From Bacteroidaceae bacterium (lineage in GTDB: Bacteria; Bacteroidota; Bacteroidia; Bacteroidales; Bacteroidaceae): a DNA stretch of 44,145 bases. The first letter of the stretch is position 1. Each line of letters starts with the position of its first letter. Position numbers and translations under genes: made by a program. The stretch covers positions 1-44,145 of the forward strand of contig JAFXZK010000119.1 in NCBI GenBank assembly GCA_017541265.1, in the 5' to 3' direction. Below are positions 2,010 through 43,170 of this stretch, one piece after another. The notes under the pieces were generated by a model that was not told where the DNA came from, made no database searches, and worked only from the letters and a program-made list of their open reading frames with translations.

Positions 2010-3611
2010 TTAAAGCACATAATACTTGGTGAGGAAATAGGTTCTCTCCCAATCCACAATCTTTACCTCGGATTCTTTTGCGGGATGGATGTCGAACTCG
2101 TCAAGGACCATCACCCGCTTGTCCTTCAGGTCGTATAGCGGCCACTCCTTCGCCTTGCCGTCGGGAGAGAGGTCTGCGCTTAGCGAGGGATTGCCGGTCT
2201 TGGCAAACTGCACCCACATCTTGCGCATGGTCTTGCAGAAGGTCTCGTCGAATGACCGTCCCGTCTCGGCAGTAGCTTCCGGATGATTGAAAACTATCGC
2301 AAGTTCAATGGCATGACCGCACTTCATGATAGGGTCAGGAGACTCCGGCGTGAGGTAGTAGGTGAATGCTTTGCCTCCGCCCATCGTCTGGCACTCTGAC
2401 AGCTTGATGATAGCCGTATTAAACCACGCCTGGCTGAACAGGCGGCTGTCGGGCTCGTAGTAGTCACCCTTGACATCGTTCTTGTAGCTCTCTATCAGCG
2501 CCTTCTCCTCGGCCGGCAGTTGTGAGAGTTTACCCGCCTTGCGCTCGGCGGACCACTTGTCCCAGCCTTCCAATCCGAAGCTGGACACGAAGAAGTCCAT
2601 TTCATCCTTGTTGCAGCCCACAAGAATCTCTATATCCTTTGCTGCGCCGTTGGCATAGGCCTCAAATGTGTTTGTGGGCAGATGAATCCCGTCTCTTTCG
2701 GGGAATTGGAGCAGGAAGAGCACCGCAGAAGCTTCTAGTAGCTTTTCGGCATCAACCTTTATGAGGTCGCTGACGGTATTGCAACCGATCACTTCCATCA
2801 GTTTGTTAGTCCTCTCAACCGCTTCTTCTGGAGACCTGGTCAGATTGACCGAACCGCTCTCAGCAATGAGTCGGTTGAAATACTGGTGGGAGCCTGGGAT
2901 GAGCGGCAGCATGGTACAGCTCGCCGCACCGGCAGACTCACCCCAGATGGTCACATTGTCGGGGTCGCCACCGAAGGCAGCTATGTTCTCATGCACCCAC
3001 TTCAGCGCCTTCACCTGATCCAATAGTCCCAGGTTCTGTGCATCAGGATAGTCCTTTCCATCAGGCAGATGAGAGAGATGCAGGAAGCCCATCACGCCGA
3101 GCCTGTAGGCAATGGTGACAACGATGACATCGGGGTTTTCCTTCACGAGGTTGAAGCAGTCGAACATCGGGTCGATGGTACCGCCGGCCTCAAAGCCACC
3201 ACCGTGGATCCATACCATGACCGGAGCCCCCTTCCCCGCTCCCCTCGTGAGGGGGAGAGCCGCCTCATCCGACTTAAATACATTAAGATACAGGCAGTCC
3301 TCATCCATATAGTACAGGGAGCCTGTTTCTAATTGTGCATTGCCGTAGGCACTCTTGGCATTGTAATAGGCCTCATACACACCATTGTCGGGAACAACAT
3401 CCACTGGAGCTTTCCAGCGCAGCTCCCCGACAGGTTGTTTGCCGACATACGGAATGCCTCTGAAGACAGTGATATTCTCCGTCTTTCTGCCAACGAAAGT
3501 TCCGTTGACGCACTTCACAGCCAGCGATTTGTCATAATTACCGTCGGTAATCTGCTTGTTCTCGCCGCCGTACATCTCTTTCAGCGTCTCTCTAATCTCA
3601 TGTAATTCCAT
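2010..3611 (-). CDS. Carboxylesterase type B (alpha/beta hydrolase), upstream paralogue
   Basis: A 533-residue type-B carboxylesterase, closely similar to the adjacent downstream gene along its whole length, so the pair is a tandem duplication. It has the canonical oxyanion motif HGGG (136-139), nucleophile Ser226 in GESAGAAS, probable acid Glu337 in NKDEMDFF, and His433 in CGHAIELAIVF. No signal peptide is visible. The same GC-rich hairpin repeat found in the paralogue encodes its loop near residues 118-130, suggesting the repeat entered before the duplication. The gene is first in its operon: a -7 box lies 141 bp upstream of the start, and a palindromic 22-bp-period array lies further upstream. 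Confidence 0.94.
   Translation of the reverse strand: MELHEIRETLKEMYGGENKQITDGNYDKSLAVKCVNGTFVGRKTENITVFRGIPYVGKQPVGELRWKAPVDVVPDNGVYEAYYNAKSAYGNAQLETGSLYYMDEDCLYLNVFKSDEAALPLTRGAGKGAPVMVWIHGGGFEAGGTIDPMFDCFNLVKENPDVIVVTIAYRLGVMGFLHLSHLPDGKDYPDAQNLGLLDQVKALKWVHENIAAFGGDPDNVTIWGESAGAASCTMLPLIPGSHQYFNRLIAESGSVNLTRSPEEAVERTNKLMEVIGCNTVSDLIKVDAEKLLEASAVLFLLQFPERDGIHLPTNTFEAYANGAAKDIEILVGCNKDEMDFFVSSFGLEGWDKWSAERKAGKLSQLPAEEKALIESYKNDVKGDYYEPDSRLFSQAWFNTAIIKLSECQTMGGGKAFTYYLTPESPDPIMKCGHAIELAIVFNHPEATAETGRSFDETFCKTMRKMWVQFAKTGNPSLSADLSPDGKAKEWPLYDLKDKRVMVLDEFDIHPAKESEVKIVDWERTYFLTKYYVL
3223..3265. repeat. GC-rich hairpin repeat in frame in the upstream esterase
   Basis: In gene sense: CTCCCCCTCACGAGGGGAG followed by CGGGGAAGGGGGCT, encoding LPLTRGAGKGA. 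It occupies the same loop as in the paralogue. Confidence 0.75.
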
Positions 3612-3759: not shown

Positions 3760-3863
3760 CAAATTTTTTATGAAAGATGGGGCGGCGGGAACGATAAAAG
3801 CAACGAAAACATGCTAAAGAATACTTATAAGTTATGATTGCAGTTGAATTTTCCTATTGAAAT

Positions 3864-3943
3864 AAGTACATGTACTTGTCGCCGGAAGTACGTGTACTTA
3901 ATGCAATAAGTACGTGTACTTATCGACCGAAGTACACGTACTT
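3864..3943. repeat. Palindrome array 1: four 14-bp palindromes, 22-bp period
   Basis: Units at 3864-3877, 3886-3899, 3908-3921 and 3930-3943 read AAGTACATGTACTT, AAGTACGTGTACTT (twice) and AAGTACACGTACTT. The spacers are 8 nt each (GTCGCCGG, AATGCAAT, ATCGACCG). Palindrome plus spacer is exactly 22 bp, about two helical turns, so all units face one side of the DNA. Two more arrays of the same form occur at 21877 and 43091. This looks like a multi-operator or a dispersed structural repeat; it is too short and too regular to be CRISPR. Confidence 0.9.
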
Positions 3944-4002
3944 ATTTTATCCCCTTCCCAGAGAGAGAGGGGAAAAGCTATTCCTTGCAATAAAATTCGG
4001 CT

Positions 4003-12057: not shown

Positions 12058-12645
12058 TCAGAAGAGCATCTCTATGAGTTGCGGACGCAGGAAGTTCTTG
12101 AAGTACGTCTCGAACTCCTCCTTGCCGAAGTTCACCTTGTAACTGCCGTCGGCGGGAGCGATGGTGAGCAGAGTGTCTTTGCCATTCACCTTGTTGATGG
12201 TCACGCCCTTGTCGAGGAGAGCCTTTGCCTTGGCGGCGAAATATGCCTTGAGGCTGTCGGCTTCGCTGGTGGAGATAACAATGGGTTCGTCGCTGCTCCA
12301 CTTCTCTGCCAGAGCAACAGCAAACTGTCCGAGGAAGTCGGGGCTTGCCTTCAAGCCTTCGACAGCCTCTTTGACGACACCGTCGGTCAGGACGTTGGTC
12401 ACTTCGCTCTTGAGGGCGTTCAAAGCCTGACTGGTATACAACTTGAGTTCGTTGCGAGTATTGGCATCTGTCTCGCTGGCTTTCTTCTGCGCCTGCACAG
12501 TGATTTCCTGTGCCTGCTGACGGGCATCCTGCAGAATCTTCTCTGCCTGCTGCTTTGCCTCCTGGATGATGCGGTCGGCCTCTGCCTGCCCTTTCTCCAC
12601 GCCTTCGCGAAGGATTTTTTCGGTGAGTTCTTGTATCTTTTCCAT
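12058..12645 (-). CDS. atpE: V-type ATP synthase subunit E (peripheral stalk)
   Basis: A 195-residue protein whose first 75 residues form a charged, Ala/Gln/Glu-rich coiled coil (KGQAEADRIIQEAKQQAEKI), followed by a compact alpha/beta C-terminal domain, the architecture of the V/A-ATPase E stalk subunit. It is the first gene of the operon, with a well-formed promoter 33 bp upstream. Sequence identity within this family is low, so the call rests on architecture and operon position next to DUF2764, A and B. Confidence 0.9.
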   Translation of the reverse strand: MEKIQELTEKILREGVEKGQAEADRIIQEAKQQAEKILQDARQQAQEITVQAQKKASETDANTRNELKLYTSQALNALKSEVTNVLTDGVVKEAVEGLKASPDFLGQFAVALAEKWSSDEPIVISTSEADSLKAYFAAKAKALLDKGVTINKVNGKDTLLTIAPADGSYKVNFGKEEFETYFKNFLRPQLIEMLF

Positions 12646-12677
12646 TAGCTATTTGTGTATTAAAGCAAATTACGGCG

Positions 12678-12708
12678 CGAAGATACAAAAAACCTTTGGA
12701 TTCTCAAA
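12678..12708 (-). promoter_or_regulatory. Promoter of the V-ATPase operon
   Basis: On the minus strand a -33 TTTG (12705-12708) and a -7 TATCTTCG (12678-12685; one mismatch to TAnnTTTG) are separated by 19 nt. The start codon of subunit E is 33 nt downstream. Confidence 0.7.
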
Positions 12709-12731
12709 GCAACGTCCTGAATTTTTCCTTT

Positions 12732-12851
12732 GTTCGGGCAGATTTGTAATCCGATCGCATTGAATATAGGGATTTGTAATCCCGCAATTTATATTTTATC
12801 GCATTACAAATGCTCATATCCAAAACTGACGGATTACAAATCCGCCAGGAC
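12732..12851 (+). repeat. Four-hairpin element, copy A
   Basis: A 120-bp element between the V-ATPase promoter and the 3' end of the fucosidase gene. It contains four small hairpins with 3-nt loops: AGATT-TGT-AATCC (12741-12752), GGGATT-TGT-AATCCC (12769-12783), GCATT-ACA-AATGC (12801-12813) and CGGATT-ACA-AATCCG (12830-12844). The ends are GTTCGGG and CCAGGAC. Same order and spacing as copy B at 22076. Confidence 0.9.
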
Positions 12852-12852
12852 T

Positions 12853-14244
12853 TCAATAGACGCCTACTTCCGCTATAGACAATTTGCCTTGATGTCGGAT
12901 GACGGCGACGCGGACACGGCCTGCCTTGACGGGCGGGAAGCGATGTTGCTTGACGCGGCATTCGGGAGCATCGCCCTCGAAGAGCGTATGCCAGAGCTTG
13001 CCGTCGCTATACTCCAGCCTGTATGCCTGCATGCAGCCCTTCTTTCCCTCAACAATCGTGACGAGCGAGATGCTTTTCGTGCCTTGGAGATCAACTTCCC
13101 ACCAAGGTTCGCTGACAGTTGGATGCGAAGTCCAGGCAGAAGAGAAGTCGTCGTCGTTGGCAAAGTCGCCAATGCCGTAATCGTAGCTCCAGCTGTATTC
13201 TGTGGGGCAGCGCTTGGCGATGTTGCATAAAGTGATGGGCGGGTCGCACTGGGGGACAGGCTTTGTCGGTCCTTCATGCTTCCAGAGCTGACCGATCTGA
13301 CGGAGTGCCTCGACGGCGTTGTCGTCCATCAAGCCCTCGCGGTTGGGGGCGACATTGAGGATGAAATTGCAATAGGCCTCGTTGTAGGGGCGGATGTTTT
13401 CCTCAACAAGCCAGCGGACATCCTTGAGCTGGTCGGTAGGCATCGACTCCTTCCAGAACCATGTGCGCTGTATGCTCAGGCAGGCCAGGGCAGGCAGACG
13501 GTTCTCCGAGGTACTTATCTTCTGTCCTGCACCCTGCTCGTACGACTTGATGTCGGTGTAAAAGAGCGCTTCGCGTGGGTACTTGGCGGCGTTGAGGTCC
13601 ATGAGCAGACAGTTGGGCTGCAAGCTCTTGACGTAATCATAAATTTCGGGGAACGATATCTCGTCGTAGGAAATGCGCGACCAGGGAGCGTCCCAGCCGT
13701 CGATAATGAGGGCCGTGATGTCGCCGTACTGGGTGAGCAGCTCACGCAGCTGCGCCTTGATGTAGTCTGTGTGTTTCTTAGGTTTGATATGTCCTGGGCG
13801 GATGCGGTGGTGTGTGTCGAGGATGCTGTAGTACAGCATCACGGCAAGCCCTTCCTGCCTGAAGGCATCGACATACTGGCGCACGACATCCACATGGGCT
13901 GGCGACTGCATGGAGTTGTAGTCGGTGGTCTTGGTGTCCCAAATGCAAAAGCCGCTGTGGTGCTTTGTGGTGAGACAGCCGTAGGTCATGCCTGCGGCCT
14001 TGGCAGCCTTGGCCCACTGGTGGCAGTCAAGGTGCGTCGGGGCAAAGGCGGAGACGGGCATGTCGGGGTCGGGCCAGTCTTCGAGGGAATAGGTGGGCAT
14101 GTTATAGTGGATGAACATGCCGAAGCGGAGATCGACGAAAGCCTGCTGCAACTCATGCAAAGGCTTCTGCTGGGCAGCCGCCAGAAGGGCTGTCAGCAGG
14201 AAAGAGAGGAAGAGAATGGCCCTTTCAGATCTTATAGGTCTCAT
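12853..14244 (-). CDS. GH29 alpha-L-fucosidase with C-terminal F5/8-type domain
   Basis: A 463-residue secreted enzyme with signal peptide (residues 1-24, ending LLAAAQ). The GH29 core shows RFGMFIHYNMPTYSLEDW, GMTYGCLTTKHHSGFCIWDT and LIIDGWDAPWS; Asp182 is the likely catalytic nucleophile. It releases alpha-linked L-fucose from glycans, probably in the periplasm or at the cell surface. Residues from about 370 onward (SSAWTSHPTVSEPWWEVDLQ) form a discoidin/F5-8C-like carbohydrate-binding domain. The gene lies 34 bp after the FAS1 lipoprotein gene; the spacer is entirely 9-bp tandem repeat and the ATG at 14244 lies inside a repeat unit. The stop is next to a four-hairpin element. Confidence 0.92.
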   Translation of the reverse strand: MRPIRSERAILFLSFLLTALLAAAQQKPLHELQQAFVDLRFGMFIHYNMPTYSLEDWPDPDMPVSAFAPTHLDCHQWAKAAKAAGMTYGCLTTKHHSGFCIWDTKTTDYNSMQSPAHVDVVRQYVDAFRQEGLAVMLYYSILDTHHRIRPGHIKPKKHTDYIKAQLRELLTQYGDITALIIDGWDAPWSRISYDEISFPEIYDYVKSLQPNCLLMDLNAAKYPREALFYTDIKSYEQGAGQKISTSENRLPALACLSIQRTWFWKESMPTDQLKDVRWLVEENIRPYNEAYCNFILNVAPNREGLMDDNAVEALRQIGQLWKHEGPTKPVPQCDPPITLCNIAKRCPTEYSWSYDYGIGDFANDDDFSSAWTSHPTVSEPWWEVDLQGTKSISLVTIVEGKKGCMQAYRLEYSDGKLWHTLFEGDAPECRVKQHRFPPVKAGRVRVAVIRHQGKLSIAEVGVY

Positions 14245-14278: not shown

Positions 14279-16432
14279 TTACCAGATGTCCTCCGGCTTC
14301 TCTGGGCTGTCATAGATTTCCTTCGGACAATACTCGAAGTAGTCGAGGTAGAGTTCCGGCCTTTGCATGTCGGGCTGCACAGACTTGAAGCGCACATAAT
14401 AGGTCTTGCCCGGTTCGAGCGTCTGGCGCACAATGATATGGCGGCTACAGTTCTCCTTGGCACGGGCTGTTGTAGAGTTCATCTCGGTCTCGTGCTTTGT
14501 TGCCTTCATCAGGCCGTGATTGCGGAGCTTGTGGTCGATATCGATGATTTCGTCCTCATCCTTGCCAGAGTCCGACAAATCACCCCATGTGGCGTTTTCA
14601 CCAAAGGTTTGAACCACACCGTGCGTCATGTTAATAGGAATGCCTGCCACAGGCAGTTTGTCCGGGTCGCTGCCAAAGTACACCTGCACGATGCCTCGCG
14701 CAGCAGTGGCAAGAAGCTTGTAGCGGAACTCATAGGTGTTGCTCTTGGGAACAGGAGGCAGCCTGAACCTCATGTCGAACTTTCCCCATGCCTTGTCTTC
14801 ATCCTGACAATAGTTCGCCCAAGCGGTCTTGTAGCCATTATAATGAATGAACTCCGTCTGGTTGTTCATGAACGTCATGTTGTTGAAGTACGGGTAGTTC
14901 TTGGGAATATAGACATGCTGCCACCTGCCCTGTGGGCTGTCGGCACGCCGGATGCCATTGGTGATAGCCTCGGGGAAAAGGGAGAAGAGGTCGAAGCGGA
15001 TGCGCTCCTTGCCCAAGTCCTCGCGCGTGACGTCGTTATAGCCCAGAGGCTTGTCGATAGGATAGATGCAGGCGTTCGCGATGTCGTTGACAACAGCCAT
15101 TTCGCTGCTCGTCTCAATGAGGACACCACGCTTGTCTGGAGCACAGTAGCTCTCGTGTCCCGTTCCTGCCACCATGTCCTGGACATCTCTTTCGGGGAAG
15201 GTGTTGAGATAAATGCCGTTGCTCTCTGCGCTTTCGTATATCTTTATCAGGCGGTCGCCCCCATACACAGGATACCACTCCATGACCGGAATCGAGTATC
15301 GGGAAGGCCTGCTGATGTTGTAGTCCAACTCGTTGCAGTGATAGACAAGCTTGTTGGCGGGAATCTTCATGGGCAGGATGTGGTACACGGTCCACTGGTA
15401 GAGCATGTTCTTGGGCGATGTGTAGTTGGCATCGGCCACATAGCCGCCGTCGCTGAGGAACATGTTTTTTGAGACGATCCAGTTCTGCAATTTCTCTATG
15501 GCATCGGAAGCCGCGGGGTCGATGCCTTGCGACTGCCAGAAGTCGTCCGTTTCGCAGAAGAACGTGAAGCCGTACTTGCGGTGCTCAGGAGCATAGGCAT
15601 TGGGGTCGCCACTGATACGCGACATGTCGCTGCCGCCCTTATCCTCGTAGTTCTCCATGTCAGGAATTTCGCCAGCCTGGTACATGGATTCATAAACATC
15701 GTCACGCACCTTGCTCAGCGTGTCGAGCAGTCCGCAGGCCTGTAGTGCCTTGGCAAACATCAGGTAGCCTTCGGTCTTCTTGTCCAGAATGTTCTGTATG
15801 TAGCGTGCGCAAGACTCGTCTTTGGGTGCGATGACCTTGTGCAGCTGGTGTAGGACACCGTTGATGAGGGGAATGTCGCAGTTTCTGGGGTCAATGGGAC
15901 AATCCTTGTCAAGTTTGATTGTGTCGCCACTGCTACTGCTGACAGTCATCTTATGGTCATTTATGTTGGGCAGAGGGAACTCTGCATTCTCTTTTCCGTT
16001 TCCGAATGAAGTGATGTCGGAGATTGAATATCGCTGGGCTTCCATGTCGCCGCCATCAATGATTGAATTAAGCACAATGACTTTGCGGATGGAGTCAAGT
16101 TTTTCGACATCGGTGAAAGCGTCCCACGAGGGTTCGCTGATCAAGCCCTGTTCTACCAGGTCTTGCAAATATTCGTCAATCGCCTTATTGGTGATGGCGA
16201 AGCATGTGTAGTTACCACGCGCCGTCAGGAGCTGGTAAACGGAAGACTGACTCCTTTTACTCACAGGCACCAGCTTCGTCAGTGCGACATACTGCGAGTA
16301 GTCCTCGTGTGCTTCAAGATAACTGGCAACAGTATATTCTGTGAACACATAGCGTGCGGAGGTGTCTATCTCCTCCGTACAGGAACAAATGACAAAGAAT
16401 AAAGTCGAAAGTGTAAGGATCAGCTTCCTCAT
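14279..16432 (-). CDS. Fasciclin (FAS1)-domain lipoprotein
   Basis: The start is placed at ATG 16432 because MRKLILTLSTLFFVICSC is a lipoprotein signal peptide (Cys16 or Cys18 is the lipidated residue); a longer in-frame start at 16489 has no such reason. This gives 717 residues. Residues about 31-203 match FAS1, including YTCFAITNKAIDEYL and the conserved NGVLHQLHKVIAP box near the end of the domain. The remaining 500 residues form a second large beta-rich region ending in a domain with YEFRYKLLATAARGIVQVYFG and TYYVRFKSVQ that looks like a carbohydrate-binding sandwich. Such FAS1 lipoproteins are usually surface-exposed parts of glycan-use loci. It precedes GH29 in an apparent operon. Confidence 0.85.
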   Translation of the reverse strand: MRKLILTLSTLFFVICSCTEEIDTSARYVFTEYTVASYLEAHEDYSQYVALTKLVPVSKRSQSSVYQLLTARGNYTCFAITNKAIDEYLQDLVEQGLISEPSWDAFTDVEKLDSIRKVIVLNSIIDGGDMEAQRYSISDITSFGNGKENAEFPLPNINDHKMTVSSSSGDTIKLDKDCPIDPRNCDIPLINGVLHQLHKVIAPKDESCARYIQNILDKKTEGYLMFAKALQACGLLDTLSKVRDDVYESMYQAGEIPDMENYEDKGGSDMSRISGDPNAYAPEHRKYGFTFFCETDDFWQSQGIDPAASDAIEKLQNWIVSKNMFLSDGGYVADANYTSPKNMLYQWTVYHILPMKIPANKLVYHCNELDYNISRPSRYSIPVMEWYPVYGGDRLIKIYESAESNGIYLNTFPERDVQDMVAGTGHESYCAPDKRGVLIETSSEMAVVNDIANACIYPIDKPLGYNDVTREDLGKERIRFDLFSLFPEAITNGIRRADSPQGRWQHVYIPKNYPYFNNMTFMNNQTEFIHYNGYKTAWANYCQDEDKAWGKFDMRFRLPPVPKSNTYEFRYKLLATAARGIVQVYFGSDPDKLPVAGIPINMTHGVVQTFGENATWGDLSDSGKDEDEIIDIDHKLRNHGLMKATKHETEMNSTTARAKENCSRHIIVRQTLEPGKTYYVRFKSVQPDMQRPELYLDYFEYCPKEIYDSPEKPEDIW

Positions 16433-16531: not shown

Positions 16532-19500
16532 TTAATCATCTGCCATGAGAATCAGTACTTGCTGGGCGTCTGCAATATTGACAACACCATCGCCATTGAC
16601 GTCGTATTTCTTATCCTCTGTACCATCGGCCATACCGATGAGGACAGCCTGTGCATCTGCGACATTCAACAACTTGTCGCCGTTCACATCACCTTCAGGA
16701 GCGTTGATAACCTTACCGCCCTCGGCCTTCATCTGGGCCTTGGTTATGAAGTGGAAGTTGCGAGCGCTCAGGGTTAACTTGTCATCTGTGGTAGCATTGT
16801 AGTTGATGTACCAGCGGATACCATGGTCAACAGCTGTACCGAGACCGAGTTCCTTGACACCCCTCTTGACATTGACGTAAACGGTCGTCCAGTCTTCTGC
16901 TATAGGCATGGTGGCAAATTCTTCGACCACGTCTGTCATAAAGTTAGGCGTATTGTAATAAACCTTGCCATTCTCAATGTCCTTTTCTGACTTGTAGTCG
17001 AAGGTGAGGATTACCTCATCCTCTTCCAGAGGCTCATAGAGATTCTTCAGGTCAAGGTAAGCTCTACCACCTGTGGTATTAATATCATATTCAAAGGCCT
17101 GCTGATCAAATTCCAACTTGTTGGCAGTGGCAACCTCCAAGTAGTCGGGGAAGTCTGTATAAAGCTGAGCCTTGGCTGCCTTAGCTGCTTCTGCGTCATC
17201 GTAAACGCCTTGGTCTAGACCATCTCTAGTTTCGTAAACAGCAGTCTCTGCATCGTCAACTCCTGCTCTTTCAAACCATTTTCCATAAACCTTCTGGGAA
17301 GCATCAAAGAGAGCATTGTATGCCTGCTTGGTATAATAGATAGCCTTCATGGTCTCGCCGATGATCACTTCTGCCTCGTAGGTAGTCACGTCCTTATTCG
17401 CTACAAGCGTTGCCTTCTGGGCAGCACTGAAGTTGGGAGCATCGCTGTAATCCTCCAATTCATCTACATAAGACTCGTAAAGCTCTGTCAGGGTAATGAT
17501 GCGCTCGGCATTGTAATCGGCAACCTCGCCGAAGGCTTCTGCAAAGCCATCAGCTGATTCTTCACCCAGATAAACGAGACCGAAATTACCTACGGCAGTC
17601 CACTCGTTACCCTTCGTGCCTTCGTTCTTCACGCCGATGGTCAGTGTGCCGTCAGTTACCTTGGCAACCATCGTGATTGCATAGCGGCCCTGTGCAAATG
17701 CGTGGGCAGCACCTTCGCTACCCCAGATACCCCAACCGTAAGTCTCGGTAGAGTCTGCGCTGTAGATTTGCTTGTCGGGGTATGTGCCCTTCCAGGCTTC
17801 GTCTTCTGTTTCGGCAGCGTCTTCACGGATAACGGGAACATAGGTGGCAACCTCGTTGGCGTATGCCATAGCAGCGTAGTTGTAGCTCAGCATCTTGTCG
17901 TCGCCGTTAGCGCGATAGCCGGCATTGAGCGTTACCTTGTAGAAGCCATTCTTCAGGTCGGTGAGCGTCTGGCTGACGTCGAACTTTGCGTTCACGTTGC
18001 AGAACTCGGCTGCGAAGATGTCGTTGTCTTCAGCGCCATCGGAAGCGGTGCGGTAGATGTAGCCGTCCCAGCCTTCAGCCTCACGACCGATGTTCTCGTT
18101 CTTCTCGTTCTTCAGCATATCGCCAGCCTTTGCGAAGGTCGGGTTCTTGATGAGAGAAGTGATATCCATGCCAGGACCATAGCCAGCAGCTACAGCTGCA
18201 ACATGCATTTCCTCGAGGAAGGCAAGCTCAACCTGCATAACGCTGTCGTTCAGCACATGATTGTCAAGGATGTAGTTGGCATTGCCGTGAGGATAAGCCT
18301 CTGTGGGTTCAGCGGCATCACCGGTGATGTAACCCAGGAGCTTTGTGAGAGCTTCGCTTTCGGTCAGGCTCTTTGCTTCTTCTGCATACTCATTAGCCTT
18401 CGTTTCCAGTTCATCATAGAGAGCAGCACTTGCTTCGATGGCAGCGCGAAGGGATTCGAGCTTGTAATTCACAACGAAGAGAGCTTCCATGTTCTCGCAA
18501 CCGTCGATTTCGGGAACAGTGGCATTGTACTCCTCAATGAGAGACTGTTGAGCGCGGTATCCGTCAGCGTCGAAGTCGTCGGCGTTGTCTGTGTATTGTG
18601 ACTTGATGGCCTCGAACTCTTCGGGTGTGCCGAAGTAAATCTCGTTCATCTGAATAGCGTTGCCTTCGTAAGCCTTCGTTACCACTACCTTATAGTACAT
18701 GTACTCGGCTTGCTCCTCGCTGAAGCCGAAGTAAGAAGGTTCTGCGTTGACGGGATGCAGACGATCCTGGCCTACGTTCTCCTTCTTGTCGATGAGCGTC
18801 CAGCCTTCTGCGTCCTTGGTAGCGTCGGCGTCACCTTCGAAGTTAGCACCATAGATGTACCAAGTGCCCCAGTTACGACCCGGGAATCTGCCTGTGTCGT
18901 TGCCTGTGGTCAGAGTATAGAAGAACGGGCTGGTCTTGTCCTGCGTGCGGAAGATGATATAGGTGTTGCCATTGGGGTCAGCCTGGCCGCCCCACTTGGT
19001 GGCGTTGACTTCCTTCTCTTCGCCTGTCTCTTCGTCAATTTCTGTTGTGTTGAGAGCGATACCGTCGATGAAGTGGCCATAGAAGCCGTCGCCCCACTGG
19101 CCCACGGTGTTGCCGCCGAGCAGGATGTAGTGGCAGTCATTGTCGGGATTGACGGCATTGGCTATCCACTGGAGGTAATCCTTCTCTGCAACGATAGCAT
19201 TGTCGTCAAGAGTACCCAGACTGGTCTCTTCGCCGCCAGAAGTTATACCGATGATGTTGTCATGAGTACCACGGATATACTTGCTGCATGGAGCAACATT
19301 CTCGGTGCTATAGCCTTCCCACCATTCGGACAGGCTTTCAGACTCGATAGTTGCAGCGTCGAGTTCAAGGTATGCATCCTCGTAATCTACATACAGATCG
19401 CCGGAAGCATCAATCAGGCCCTGGAGGTCAACCAGTTCGTTCTTGAACTTCATCACATCAGGAGCATAGACTGTGGTCGTCAGCTCTTGGTACTTGCTCT

Positions 19501-21876: not shown

Positions 21877-21956
21877 AAGTCCCCGTACTTATGACGATAA
21901 GTACACGGACTTATGGGCATAAGTACAGGGACTTATGGCAATAAGAGCACGGACTT
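21877..21956. repeat. Palindrome array 2: four 14-bp palindromes, 22-bp period
   Basis: Units at 21877-21890, 21899-21912, 21921-21934 and 21943-21956: AAGTCCCCGTACTT, AAGTACACGGACTT, AAGTACAGGGACTT and AAGAGCACGGACTT. The 8-nt spacers ATGACGAT, ATGGGCAT and ATGGCAAT share the form ATGnnnAT. Length (80 bp), unit number and period are identical to arrays 1 and 3. Confidence 0.9.
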
Positions 21957-21992
21957 CTGGGAAGGTATCAATTCACCTCATGTTCTTGGGAT

Positions 21993-22083
21993 GTTAGGAT
22001 GTTCGGGCAGATGTCGGATGTTAGGATGTTCGGGCGTTAGGATGTTCGGGCGTTAGGATGTTCAGGCGTTAGGATGTTCGGGC
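21993..22083. repeat. 16-bp tandem repeat built from the end of the four-hairpin element
   Basis: The unit GTTAGGATGTTCGGGC occurs at 21993-22008, then four times head-to-tail at 22020-22083 (one copy has TTCAGGC). The last unit runs directly into the GTTCGGGCGG left end of element copy B. Confidence 0.88.
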
Positions 22084-22194
22084 GGATTTGCAATCCGCCC
22101 GTATCGAGTATAGGGATTTGTAATCCCGAAACATCTTTTTATCGCATTGCAAATGCTTATAATCTATACTGGCGGATTACAAATCCGCCAGAAC
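22076..22194 (+). repeat. Four-hairpin element, copy B (next to RAYT)
   Basis: A 119-bp element with hairpins GGGCGGATT-TGC-AATCCGCCC (22080-22100), GGGATT-TGT-AATCCC (22113-22127), GCATT-GCA-AATGC (22144-22156) and TGGCGGATT-ACA-AATCCGCCA (22170-22190). The outer ends are GTTC and GAAC. It lies 93 bp from the 3' end of the RAYT gene. Confidence 0.92.
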
Positions 22195-22271
22195 AAAGAA
22201 CAAGGAAATCCGCCAGAACGAGGGAACAAGGAAATCCGCCAGAACGAGGGAACAAGGAAATCCGCCAGAAC
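22182..22271. repeat. 25-26 bp tandem repeat built from the other end of the element
   Basis: The right end of element B, AATCCGCCAGAAC, is repeated four times at 22182, 22207, 22233 and 22259, joined by AAAGAACAAGGA- or GAGGGAACAAGGA-type linkers. It ends just before the RAYT stop. Confidence 0.88.
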
Positions 22272-22286
22272 GGGGGAACGGGGGCA

Positions 22287-22823
22287 TTACCGTGCAACGA
22301 TTACGTTCAAAAGACCACTCATGCCTGCATAATTGCGGGCAGAGCTATACAGATAGTCTTCCGCACGTTCAACTATCTCCTGTCTCACAGGATTCTGATG
22401 TATGTACTCAAGCTTTTGTCTATAGAAATCGTGGGTGTAGATTTGCTCCACATGATTATCCTCCTGCCAAAACTTGTAGCTCGCAACTTTCTTGTCATTG
22501 GCAGCACGGAAGCTACACCTGTCCAACATCCACTTTTGTCTGCTTTCCTGTATGTTCTCCTGAATAGACAATATAATGCTTTTGCTTGTAAACTTCTTGA
22601 AGTCACGAAGCACGTCGCCGATTGTATTGTCTCCTCTCACGCCGACAATCATGTGCAGATGGTTTGTCATCAACACCCACGCGTATATGTCAAGCCCCTT
22701 GTTCGCCTGGCAGAACTCCAACGACTCGACAACAATATGTTTGTACAGTGGACGGGTGAAAACATCCATCCAATCAACCACAGTGGAGGTGGTGAAGTAC
22801 AGTTCGCGTGTCAATGCTGGCAT
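22287..22823 (-). CDS. REP-associated tyrosine transposase (RAYT), IS200-like Y1 family
   Basis: A 178-residue protein of the Y1 transposase superfamily. The HUH metal-binding motif is NHLHMIV (His55, His57), preceded by YAWVLMT, and the likely catalytic tyrosine is Tyr140 in LEYIHQNPVR, followed by DYLYSSARNYAG, the signature order of RAYTs. The N-terminus LYFTTSTVVDWMDVFTR also fits the family. Such enzymes cut and join single-stranded DNA at REP hairpins. No IS-type terminal organisation is seen; instead the gene is bracketed by a full four-hairpin element (22076-22194) and a half element (22856-22912), the usual arrangement of a RAYT with its REPs. The frame is intact, so the protein may be active. 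Confidence 0.93.
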   Translation of the reverse strand: MPALTRELYFTTSTVVDWMDVFTRPLYKHIVVESLEFCQANKGLDIYAWVLMTNHLHMIVGVRGDNTIGDVLRDFKKFTSKSIILSIQENIQESRQKWMLDRCSFRAANDKKVASYKFWQEDNHVEQIYTHDFYRQKLEYIHQNPVRQEIVERAEDYLYSSARNYAGMSGLLNVIVAR

Positions 22824-22855: not shown

Positions 22856-22912
22856 TTTATCGCATTGCAAATGCTTATATTCGATGCTGGCGGATTACAA
22901 ATCCGCCAGAAC
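22856..22912 (+). repeat. Four-hairpin element, half copy C
   Basis: Contains only the right-hand two hairpins: GCATT-GCA-AATGC (22862-22874) and TGGCGGATT-ACA-AATCCGCCA (22888-22908), then GAAC. Same orientation as copy B and almost identical to its right half. It lies between the RAYT start and the 3' end of the CotH protein gene. Confidence 0.9.
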
Positions 22913-22931
22913 GGCGAACGGCTCGAAGGTA

Positions 22932-43006: not shown

Positions 43007-43035
43007 TTTTACTCACATAGTCATTGACTTTCAGG

Positions 43036-43070
43036 AAGTTCCCCCATCAAAGGGGGGACTTCTTTTTTTA
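43036..43070 (+). terminator. Rho-independent terminator of the 42206-43006 gene
   Basis: The stem AAGTTCCCCC / GGGGGGACTT (one T-G wobble) with loop ATCAAA is followed by CTTTTTTTAT, 30 bp after the stop codon. Confidence 0.9.
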
Positions 43071-43090: not shown

Positions 43091-43170
43091 AAGTCCCTGT
43101 ACCTATGCCAATAAGAACGTGGACTTATGGTCATAAGAACGTGGACTTATGACCATAAGTACGGGGACTT
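43091..43170. repeat. Palindrome array 3: four 14-bp palindromes, 22-bp period
   Basis: Units at 43091-43104, 43113-43126, 43135-43148 and 43157-43170: AAGTCCCTGTACCT, AAGAACGTGGACTT (twice) and AAGTACGGGGACTT. Spacers ATGCCAAT, ATGGTCAT and ATGACCAT follow the form ATGnnnAT, as in array 2. It lies after the terminator and before the dnaK promoter region, so it belongs on the dnaK side. Confidence 0.9.

Follow-up and report, generated by a model that had tools for sequence, protein, structure and literature searches.

Results

Three arrays in the window and their neighbors

The window, by which we mean the whole 44,145-nucleotide stretch of Bacteroidaceae DNA that was analyzed, carries three arrays of a short palindromic unit with AAGT/ACTT arms. 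All three were recovered where the initial annotation had placed them, with four units each at a 22-bp step. The features that concern us are:

2010-3611, minus strand: carboxylesterase ORF (Pfam COesterase)
3834..3989, minus strand: decayed RUG837-type MITE around array 1, by homology (nhmmer model positions 28-149, E 3.9e-27)
3864..3943, no strand assigned: array 1, four 14-bp units at a 22-bp step with 8-bp spacers
21877..21956, plus strand: array 2, four units, with a single arm mismatch in the last
43035..43069, plus strand: hairpin resembling an ordinary intrinsic terminator, T-run included, in the gap that separates array 3 from the upstream gene
43091..43170, minus strand: array 3, four units, of which three have one arm mismatch each

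The palindromes of array 1 had been described as perfect and the array as lying upstream of the esterase promoter. On reading, however, unit 1 (AAGTACATGTACTT) is the only fully self-complementary one, units 2-4 being mismatched at the center; the array sits 253-332 bp 5' of the first ATG of the carboxylesterase ORF (for which the simple gene caller favored a later start), and the stop codon of its other neighbor is only 59 bp away. Array 3, preceded by an A-run and followed by a T-run, is positioned 163 bp before an hsp70/dnaK ORF and 84 bp past the stop of another gene; the hairpin at 43035..43069 was detected by script, with its ends read by eye. Counting units with up to one mismatch, the window holds 25 matches vs. 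12.5 expected, and 25 or more were reached in 0/100 shuffles. An Rfam scan of the window returned no match at gathering scores. As a separate observation, the adjoining minus-strand ORFs at 407-1993 and 2010-3611 look like a tandem duplication, with DNA repeats of 76-85% identity.

Census and placement of the arrays

The 3.24-Mb genome of the window (143 contigs) contains 134 exact adjacent unit pairs at 22-bp spacing, and 0 matches to a reversed control pattern. The exact-pair pattern matched 12 of 61 genomes (the window's own, 36 of the same genus and 24 from other families of the order), the own genome being followed by G005 (21 pairs) and G033 (7). The reversed pattern gave 5 matches in G013, against 4 forward ones, and 1 in G059, where the forward pattern gave none. 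Unit form was read from a 401-kb sample consisting of the window and 20 stretches of its own genome, 18 of them picked where exact pairs occurred, with arrays chained from units having at most one arm mismatch and a start distance of at most 48. Among the resulting 29 arrays, 82/84 unit intervals were 22 bp and 2/84 were 44 bp. The suggestion that the count is fixed at exactly four did not survive: by span, 2, 3, 4, 5 and 6 units were present in 2, 4, 17, 5 and 1 arrays, respectively, a range of 2-6 with four in 17/29. C6 and G9 were kept in 113/113 units, and positions 5/10 (A.G in 47 and C.T in 39 of the 113) were mostly unpaired; within this genome, unit pairs 5-10 and 7-8 are in most cases not complementary. 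Half-decayed relics, taken as at least 22/32 arm letters, were absent from the 401 kb outside the 29 arrays.

According to a simple in-house gene caller, every array was intergenic, 29/29 in the window's genome and 37/37 in the 355 kb sampled from RUG837; the coding fraction of the two samples was 0.83 and 0.84, respectively. For the 63 arrays with both neighbors called, the gene context was same-strand in 41, convergent in 12 and divergent in 10; the background of 265 gaps of at least 100 bp comprised 193 same-strand, 28 convergent and 44 divergent ones. Within same-strand gaps, 35/41 arrays were nearer the stop than the start (p 5e-6). The arrays had been proposed to lie upstream of genes as operators; given their occurrence in every gene orientation, including 12/63 between convergent genes, and their stop-side position, an operator role for the neighbors is unsupported. 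A control palindromic repeat (GGATT...AATCC clusters) was nearer the stop in 9/14 cases (p 0.42), so that a milder stop-side bias may be general to intergenic repeats, the control being small. The families of the 54 start-side neighbors were mixed, and no regulator gene beside the arrays was evident among the 25 shown of their 146 families.

The array as the core of a MITE in RUG837

RUG837 (G061; contigs shared with G090, listed in the genus of the window) can be aligned to the window's genome over long blocks, the majority of the listed ones at 75-87% identity, and many of its arrays lie between constant flanks. Its 355 kb of sequence, in 20 stretches all picked where the TIR matched, held 24 inward TIR pairs, two of which (531 bp and 1946 bp) were not short elements. 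The remaining 22 measure 154-185 bp (10 of 163 bp, 3 of 185 bp) and comprise four units in 18 cases and five in 4. The inverted TIR ATGATAATCCGCAAA stands at both ends, usually with 52 bp from the outer end to the array on one side and 31 bp on the other. Agreement between the left and right neighbors of the elements peaks at 10 bp (z 6.7, with z 4.0 at 9 bp and z 2.4 at 11 bp), and at this length the neighbors are at least 80% alike in 9/22 elements. This target duplication of ~10 bp, whose exact boundary is uncertain by 1-2 bases, is the mark of transposition. The RUG837 element is thus a MITE: short, intergenic, in many copies, with TIRs and target site duplication and without a transposase gene. 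Among the roles first suggested for the arrays, that of a mobile structural repeat was borne out here, the array in RUG837 being the core of such an element. TIR matches with at most one mismatch numbered 60 in RUG837 vs. 3 in the window's genome, and 23/37 sampled RUG837 arrays lay within a recognized TIR pair.

No transposase was found between the RUG837 TIRs; DDE_Tnp_1 was absent from RUG837 and present once in the window's genome. A search for a parent by exact TIR across 121 genomes of the genus yielded only RUG837 itself and a single match in G068, and one RUG837 element copy had no match among plasmids and phages. The 1946-bp TIR pair was rejected as a parent element, as its left word is a chance word inside a called gene and the pair encloses a yicC-like gene.

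Element ends and insertion sites in the genome of the window

With an nhmmer model built from 18 RUG837 elements, array 1 is shown, as judged by homology, to be a decayed copy of this MITE, with its leader on the right, its tail on the left and TIRs that are not recognizable; no target duplication was seen there by eye. Arrays 2 and 3 matched the model only in the array part (model positions 52-134 and 50-137), and we infer that they are older or divergent relatives in which only the array was kept. Since a TIR-like word within 250 bp accompanied only 4/29 arrays of the window's genome, and since the other leader, common to 10/29, came from flanks chosen by eye, the probable MITE status in this genome rests mainly on homology to RUG837. 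A model made from those 10 leader flanks detected no further strong copy in the sample.

At every site passing the both-flanks rule between the window's genome and RUG837 (6/6), the array of one species was absent in the other. One orthologous array beside a terminator (L107/L031) was common to both species; it had failed the rule with one flank aligned too briefly. Two side observations concern insertion sites and ends. The arrays at L019 6932-7011 and L064 965-1066 appear, by eye, to occupy the same intergenic region of the two species within different elements, as if from independent insertions. An intergenic repeat of ~250 bp (L018 ~12530-12830, L030 ~16700-16945, L032 ~13664-13900 and L033 ~14290-14620) has the common word GCTTAAATCGAA and ends in two or three AAGT units, accounting for four short arrays of the window's genome; the word resembles the 3' TIR given for P. 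gingivalis MITE239 (PMC4596501).

Form over sequence across genomes

A contig scan for three exact units returned at least 106 stretches. Among the 80 matches listed, the array carriers included RUG837 foremost, several rumen and horse MAGs, Prevotella bivia, P. dentasini, Phocaeicola sartorii, Xylanibacter rodentium and a Parabacteroides, and further Anaerophaga, a MAG named Kiritimatiellae and one Vibrio. Covariation was assessed on 78 of the at least 106 loci (28 were without genome label), skipping arrays with any non-22 interval; the 21 "genomes" in this set are accession prefixes and may take in unrelated repeats. The inner pairs 5-10, 6-9 and 7-8 were complementary in 0.60, 0.57 and 0.39 vs. 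an expected 0.31, 0.23 and 0.26, and co-varied with z 3.6, 4.9 and 2.1, compared to at most z 0.1 for six slid control pairs. The spacer likewise co-varied at 1-8 (z 3.6) and 3-6 (z 2.7), with no covariation at 2-7 (z 1.0) and 4-5 (z -0.2) over the same 21 genomes; this second dyad is expected, since the geometry of a periodic palindrome puts two dyads in each period. That form is conserved over sequence holds between species. As to whether unit changes are compensatory, the inner pairs do co-vary across the 21 genomes, but a compensatory reading of the units within the window's own genome breaks down at positions 5/10.

A sequence-blind scan found period 22 to be the commonest, in 39/59 tandem arrays of the window's genome and in 35/78 of other genus members, the latter a set of 40 loci with 11 picked for matches and 29 picked blindly. 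All period-22 arrays were intergenic and, relative to column shuffles, 30 of those in the window's genome and 18 in other genus members were palindromic; at periods outside 21-23 this applied to 3/20 and 3/35, respectively. In 20 blind genus stretches (374 kb), lag 22 occurred at 7 places, lag 21 at 6 and lags 14, 36 and 44 at 5 each, a narrow lead which indicates that the prominence of period 22 comes partly from the choice of stretches. An even-centered, palindrome-only test on 24 loci grouped as unpicked gave lag 22 at 1 or 2 places, and other lags at none or at 1 each for two lags. Other families contributed only 3 tandem arrays in 262 kb. A TIR scan around the arrays of other genus members, run without a null, gave mostly short matches, so that these arrays are only candidate MITEs. 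The palindromes seen include the unrelated AAGACGCGCGTCTT, GAGTCCATGTGCACGGACTC, ATGACCGGTCGTAT and AAATCC..GGATTT. Another species of the genus (G013) carries TTTTCA-N5-TGAAAA on a 21-bp step (L051 9514, L052 12409, L053 11405), and the step is therefore about two helical turns, not exactly 22 bp everywhere.

Constraint on spacing

In the 22 TIR-bounded RUG837 elements, which had been selected for their TIRs irrespective of the array, length had changed in 0/70 unit intervals vs. 9/44 flank segments. Pairwise divergence among the 18 four-unit elements was 0.013 in the arms, a low value on which the counting of units with at most one arm mismatch bears, and 0.099 in the inner six positions, 0.217 in the spacer, 0.196 in the last 20 positions of the leader and 0.152 in the TIR; the copies share ancestry, which can mimic constraint. 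Two further array sets, found via the spaced pattern, had identical units in 32/35 and distinct spacers in 26/27 (RGIG5050), and identical units in 27/33 with distinct spacers in 14/22 (Horse_feces34). When the gap was left free at 0-30 nt, a manual count of the 75 listed forward matches (11/11 of G149, 23/23 of G148 and 41/77 of G147) put 62 at 22, 12 at 44 and 1 at 36; in G146 the free-gap pattern gave 51 forward matches and 7 with the reversed control.

Discussion

We favor the view, to which we would assign a probability of about 0.6, that these elements are MITEs bearing a fixed-phase array of dimer sites for a putative protein. The arrays would form the core of mobile elements that are short and non-autonomous (MITEs), each 14-18-bp palindrome would be bound by a dimer of this protein, and adjacent dimers would be in contact, with a constant step near two helical turns and with the protein of each lineage having its own specificity; binding may be used in transposition or, once the element has inserted, in a structural role for the host. 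Such binding would account for the retention of palindromes and of their exact spacing through changes of letters and spacers. It is the combination of free spacer letters, fixed spacer length and self-complementary units that points to cooperative dimers, as a hairpin or terminator needs neither. A site for a global dimeric protein, among the roles first proposed, is putative but favored by the fixed spacing with free spacers and by palindrome covariation; the searches described above found neither a binding protein nor a parent transposase. Plasmid iterons comprise a few tandem protein sites at a step of about 22 bp, with a sequence specific to each system, and the arrays resemble them in all these respects; unlike iterons, they are palindromic and dispersed through the chromosome.

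A neutral origin would hold that the array is a minisatellite within a MITE, without a role of its own, with a 22-bp step that was inherited and copies that are young. Copies of one family do share spacer order by position, position was lost at 6/6 tested sites, BrickBuilt provides a precedent for tandem cores in MITEs (PMC4596501) and period 22 was only narrowly ahead in the blind genus stretches. We nevertheless consider this account doubtful, because spacers diverge as much as leaders while their length never changed, the same period recurs in unrelated palindromes of several species, palindromic pairs co-vary across genomes, and arrays are intact where TIRs are unrecognizable, with no half-decayed relics.

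Somewhat less probable, in our estimate, is a transcribed hairpin that acts as a mobile bidirectional terminator or 3'-end stabilizer. Both RNA strands fold beyond shuffles, with a median z of -7.3 over 58 strands in the window's genome and -4.4 over 74 in RUG837, but strong folding is partly automatic for a periodic palindrome. A T-run of five marks 24/58 strand ends in the window's genome and 18/74 in RUG837, as compared to a fraction of 0.0034 among 8-nt windows of the sample; these T-runs are, however, hardly commoner in the direction of read-through (13/28 stop-side vs. 11/28 start-side in the window's genome, 6/37 vs. 11/33 in RUG837). Likewise, the lean of same-strand arrays toward the stop (35/41) would suit such a function, but 10/63 arrays lie between divergent genes and a terminator-like hairpin is already present in 5/14 tested stop-side gaps of the window's genome and 3/29 of RUG837. 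A hairpin, moreover, needs no fixed spacing with free spacers. That the arrays are operators for a regulator of adjacent genes appears highly improbable: palindromic sites near helical phase do resemble operators, and array 3 lies 163 bp upstream of the hsp70/dnaK ORF, yet the arrays are nearer stops, occur between convergent genes in 12/63 cases, turn over between two species and adjoin genes of mixed families.

Among the matches listed from the open-access literature, the nearest described systems are BrickBuilt, PINSR and REP, with BrickBuilt the closest in kind. BrickBuilt, reported for P. gingivalis and P. gulae, is a MITE of intergenic regions built of a leader, a tandem-repeat core and a tail, with small TIRs, some copies being without leader or tail (PMC4596501); the elements described here have the same organization and a period near two helical turns, and some copies are also without leader or tail. 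The BrickBuilt core consists of 23-nt direct repeats without spacers, in 1 to 22.8 repeats with 0-6% indels within an element, and its TIR is of the GAGACC type, like IS5 elements (PMC4596501). In contrast, our arrays are made of palindromic units with 8-bp spacers on a 22-bp step, with 2-6 units and no length change seen, the RUG837 TIR is ATGATAATCCGC, and, unlike the BrickBuilt of two Porphyromonas species, unrelated sequences take this form in several species. Prevotella intermedia/nigrescens carry PINSR, a 188-bp intergenic repeat with 177 and 184 copies in two strains, about three quarters of its sites being conserved between strains, and with no TIRs according to its authors (PMC4755523). 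Compared by description and not by sequence, PINSR is similar to our elements in intergenic position, size and related genus, and differs from the RUG837 elements, which have TIRs.

REPs measure 20-40 bp, have variable partner spacing and belong mostly to GTAG- or CGTC-tagged families, while CRISPRs have 24-48-bp repeats with regularly sized unique spacers (both from PMC3733652). Like REP/BIME, the arrays are intergenic palindromes in many copies and clusters; unlike REP, they keep a fixed step. A REP/RAYT origin was rejected, as the palindrome on either side of the window's Y1_Tnp gene is a different one; the genome has 4 Y1_Tnp matches, at loci without an AAGT array except for array 2, ~330 bp from one. 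CRISPR was dismissed with units of 14 bp and spacers of 8 bp. Around the RAYT-like Y1_Tnp gene itself (22287-22823, minus strand) we noted flanking GGCGGATT...AATCCGCC palindrome copies (22075-22201, 22856-22919), short tandem repeats of ~16 and ~26 bp at 21987-22077 and 22198-22279 beside array 2 and the gene, and an aligned gap of 233 bp in RUG837 vs. 1210 bp, as if that genome lacked the gene, the repeats and array 2.

Extending the dimer-site reading, we speculate, and put forward only as a tentative possibility, that Bacteroidales may carry a diversifying family of DNA-binding proteins that recognize palindromes at a fixed 21-22-bp step, with letters changed per lineage and geometry kept, on platforms spread by MITEs and possibly organizing the nucleoid. 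If the dimer-site reading is right, what several gut and rumen Bacteroidales conserve in an intergenic element would be its geometry and not its sequence, and the arrays would offer a handle on the putative protein as well as on how mobile elements acquire host-facing arrays.
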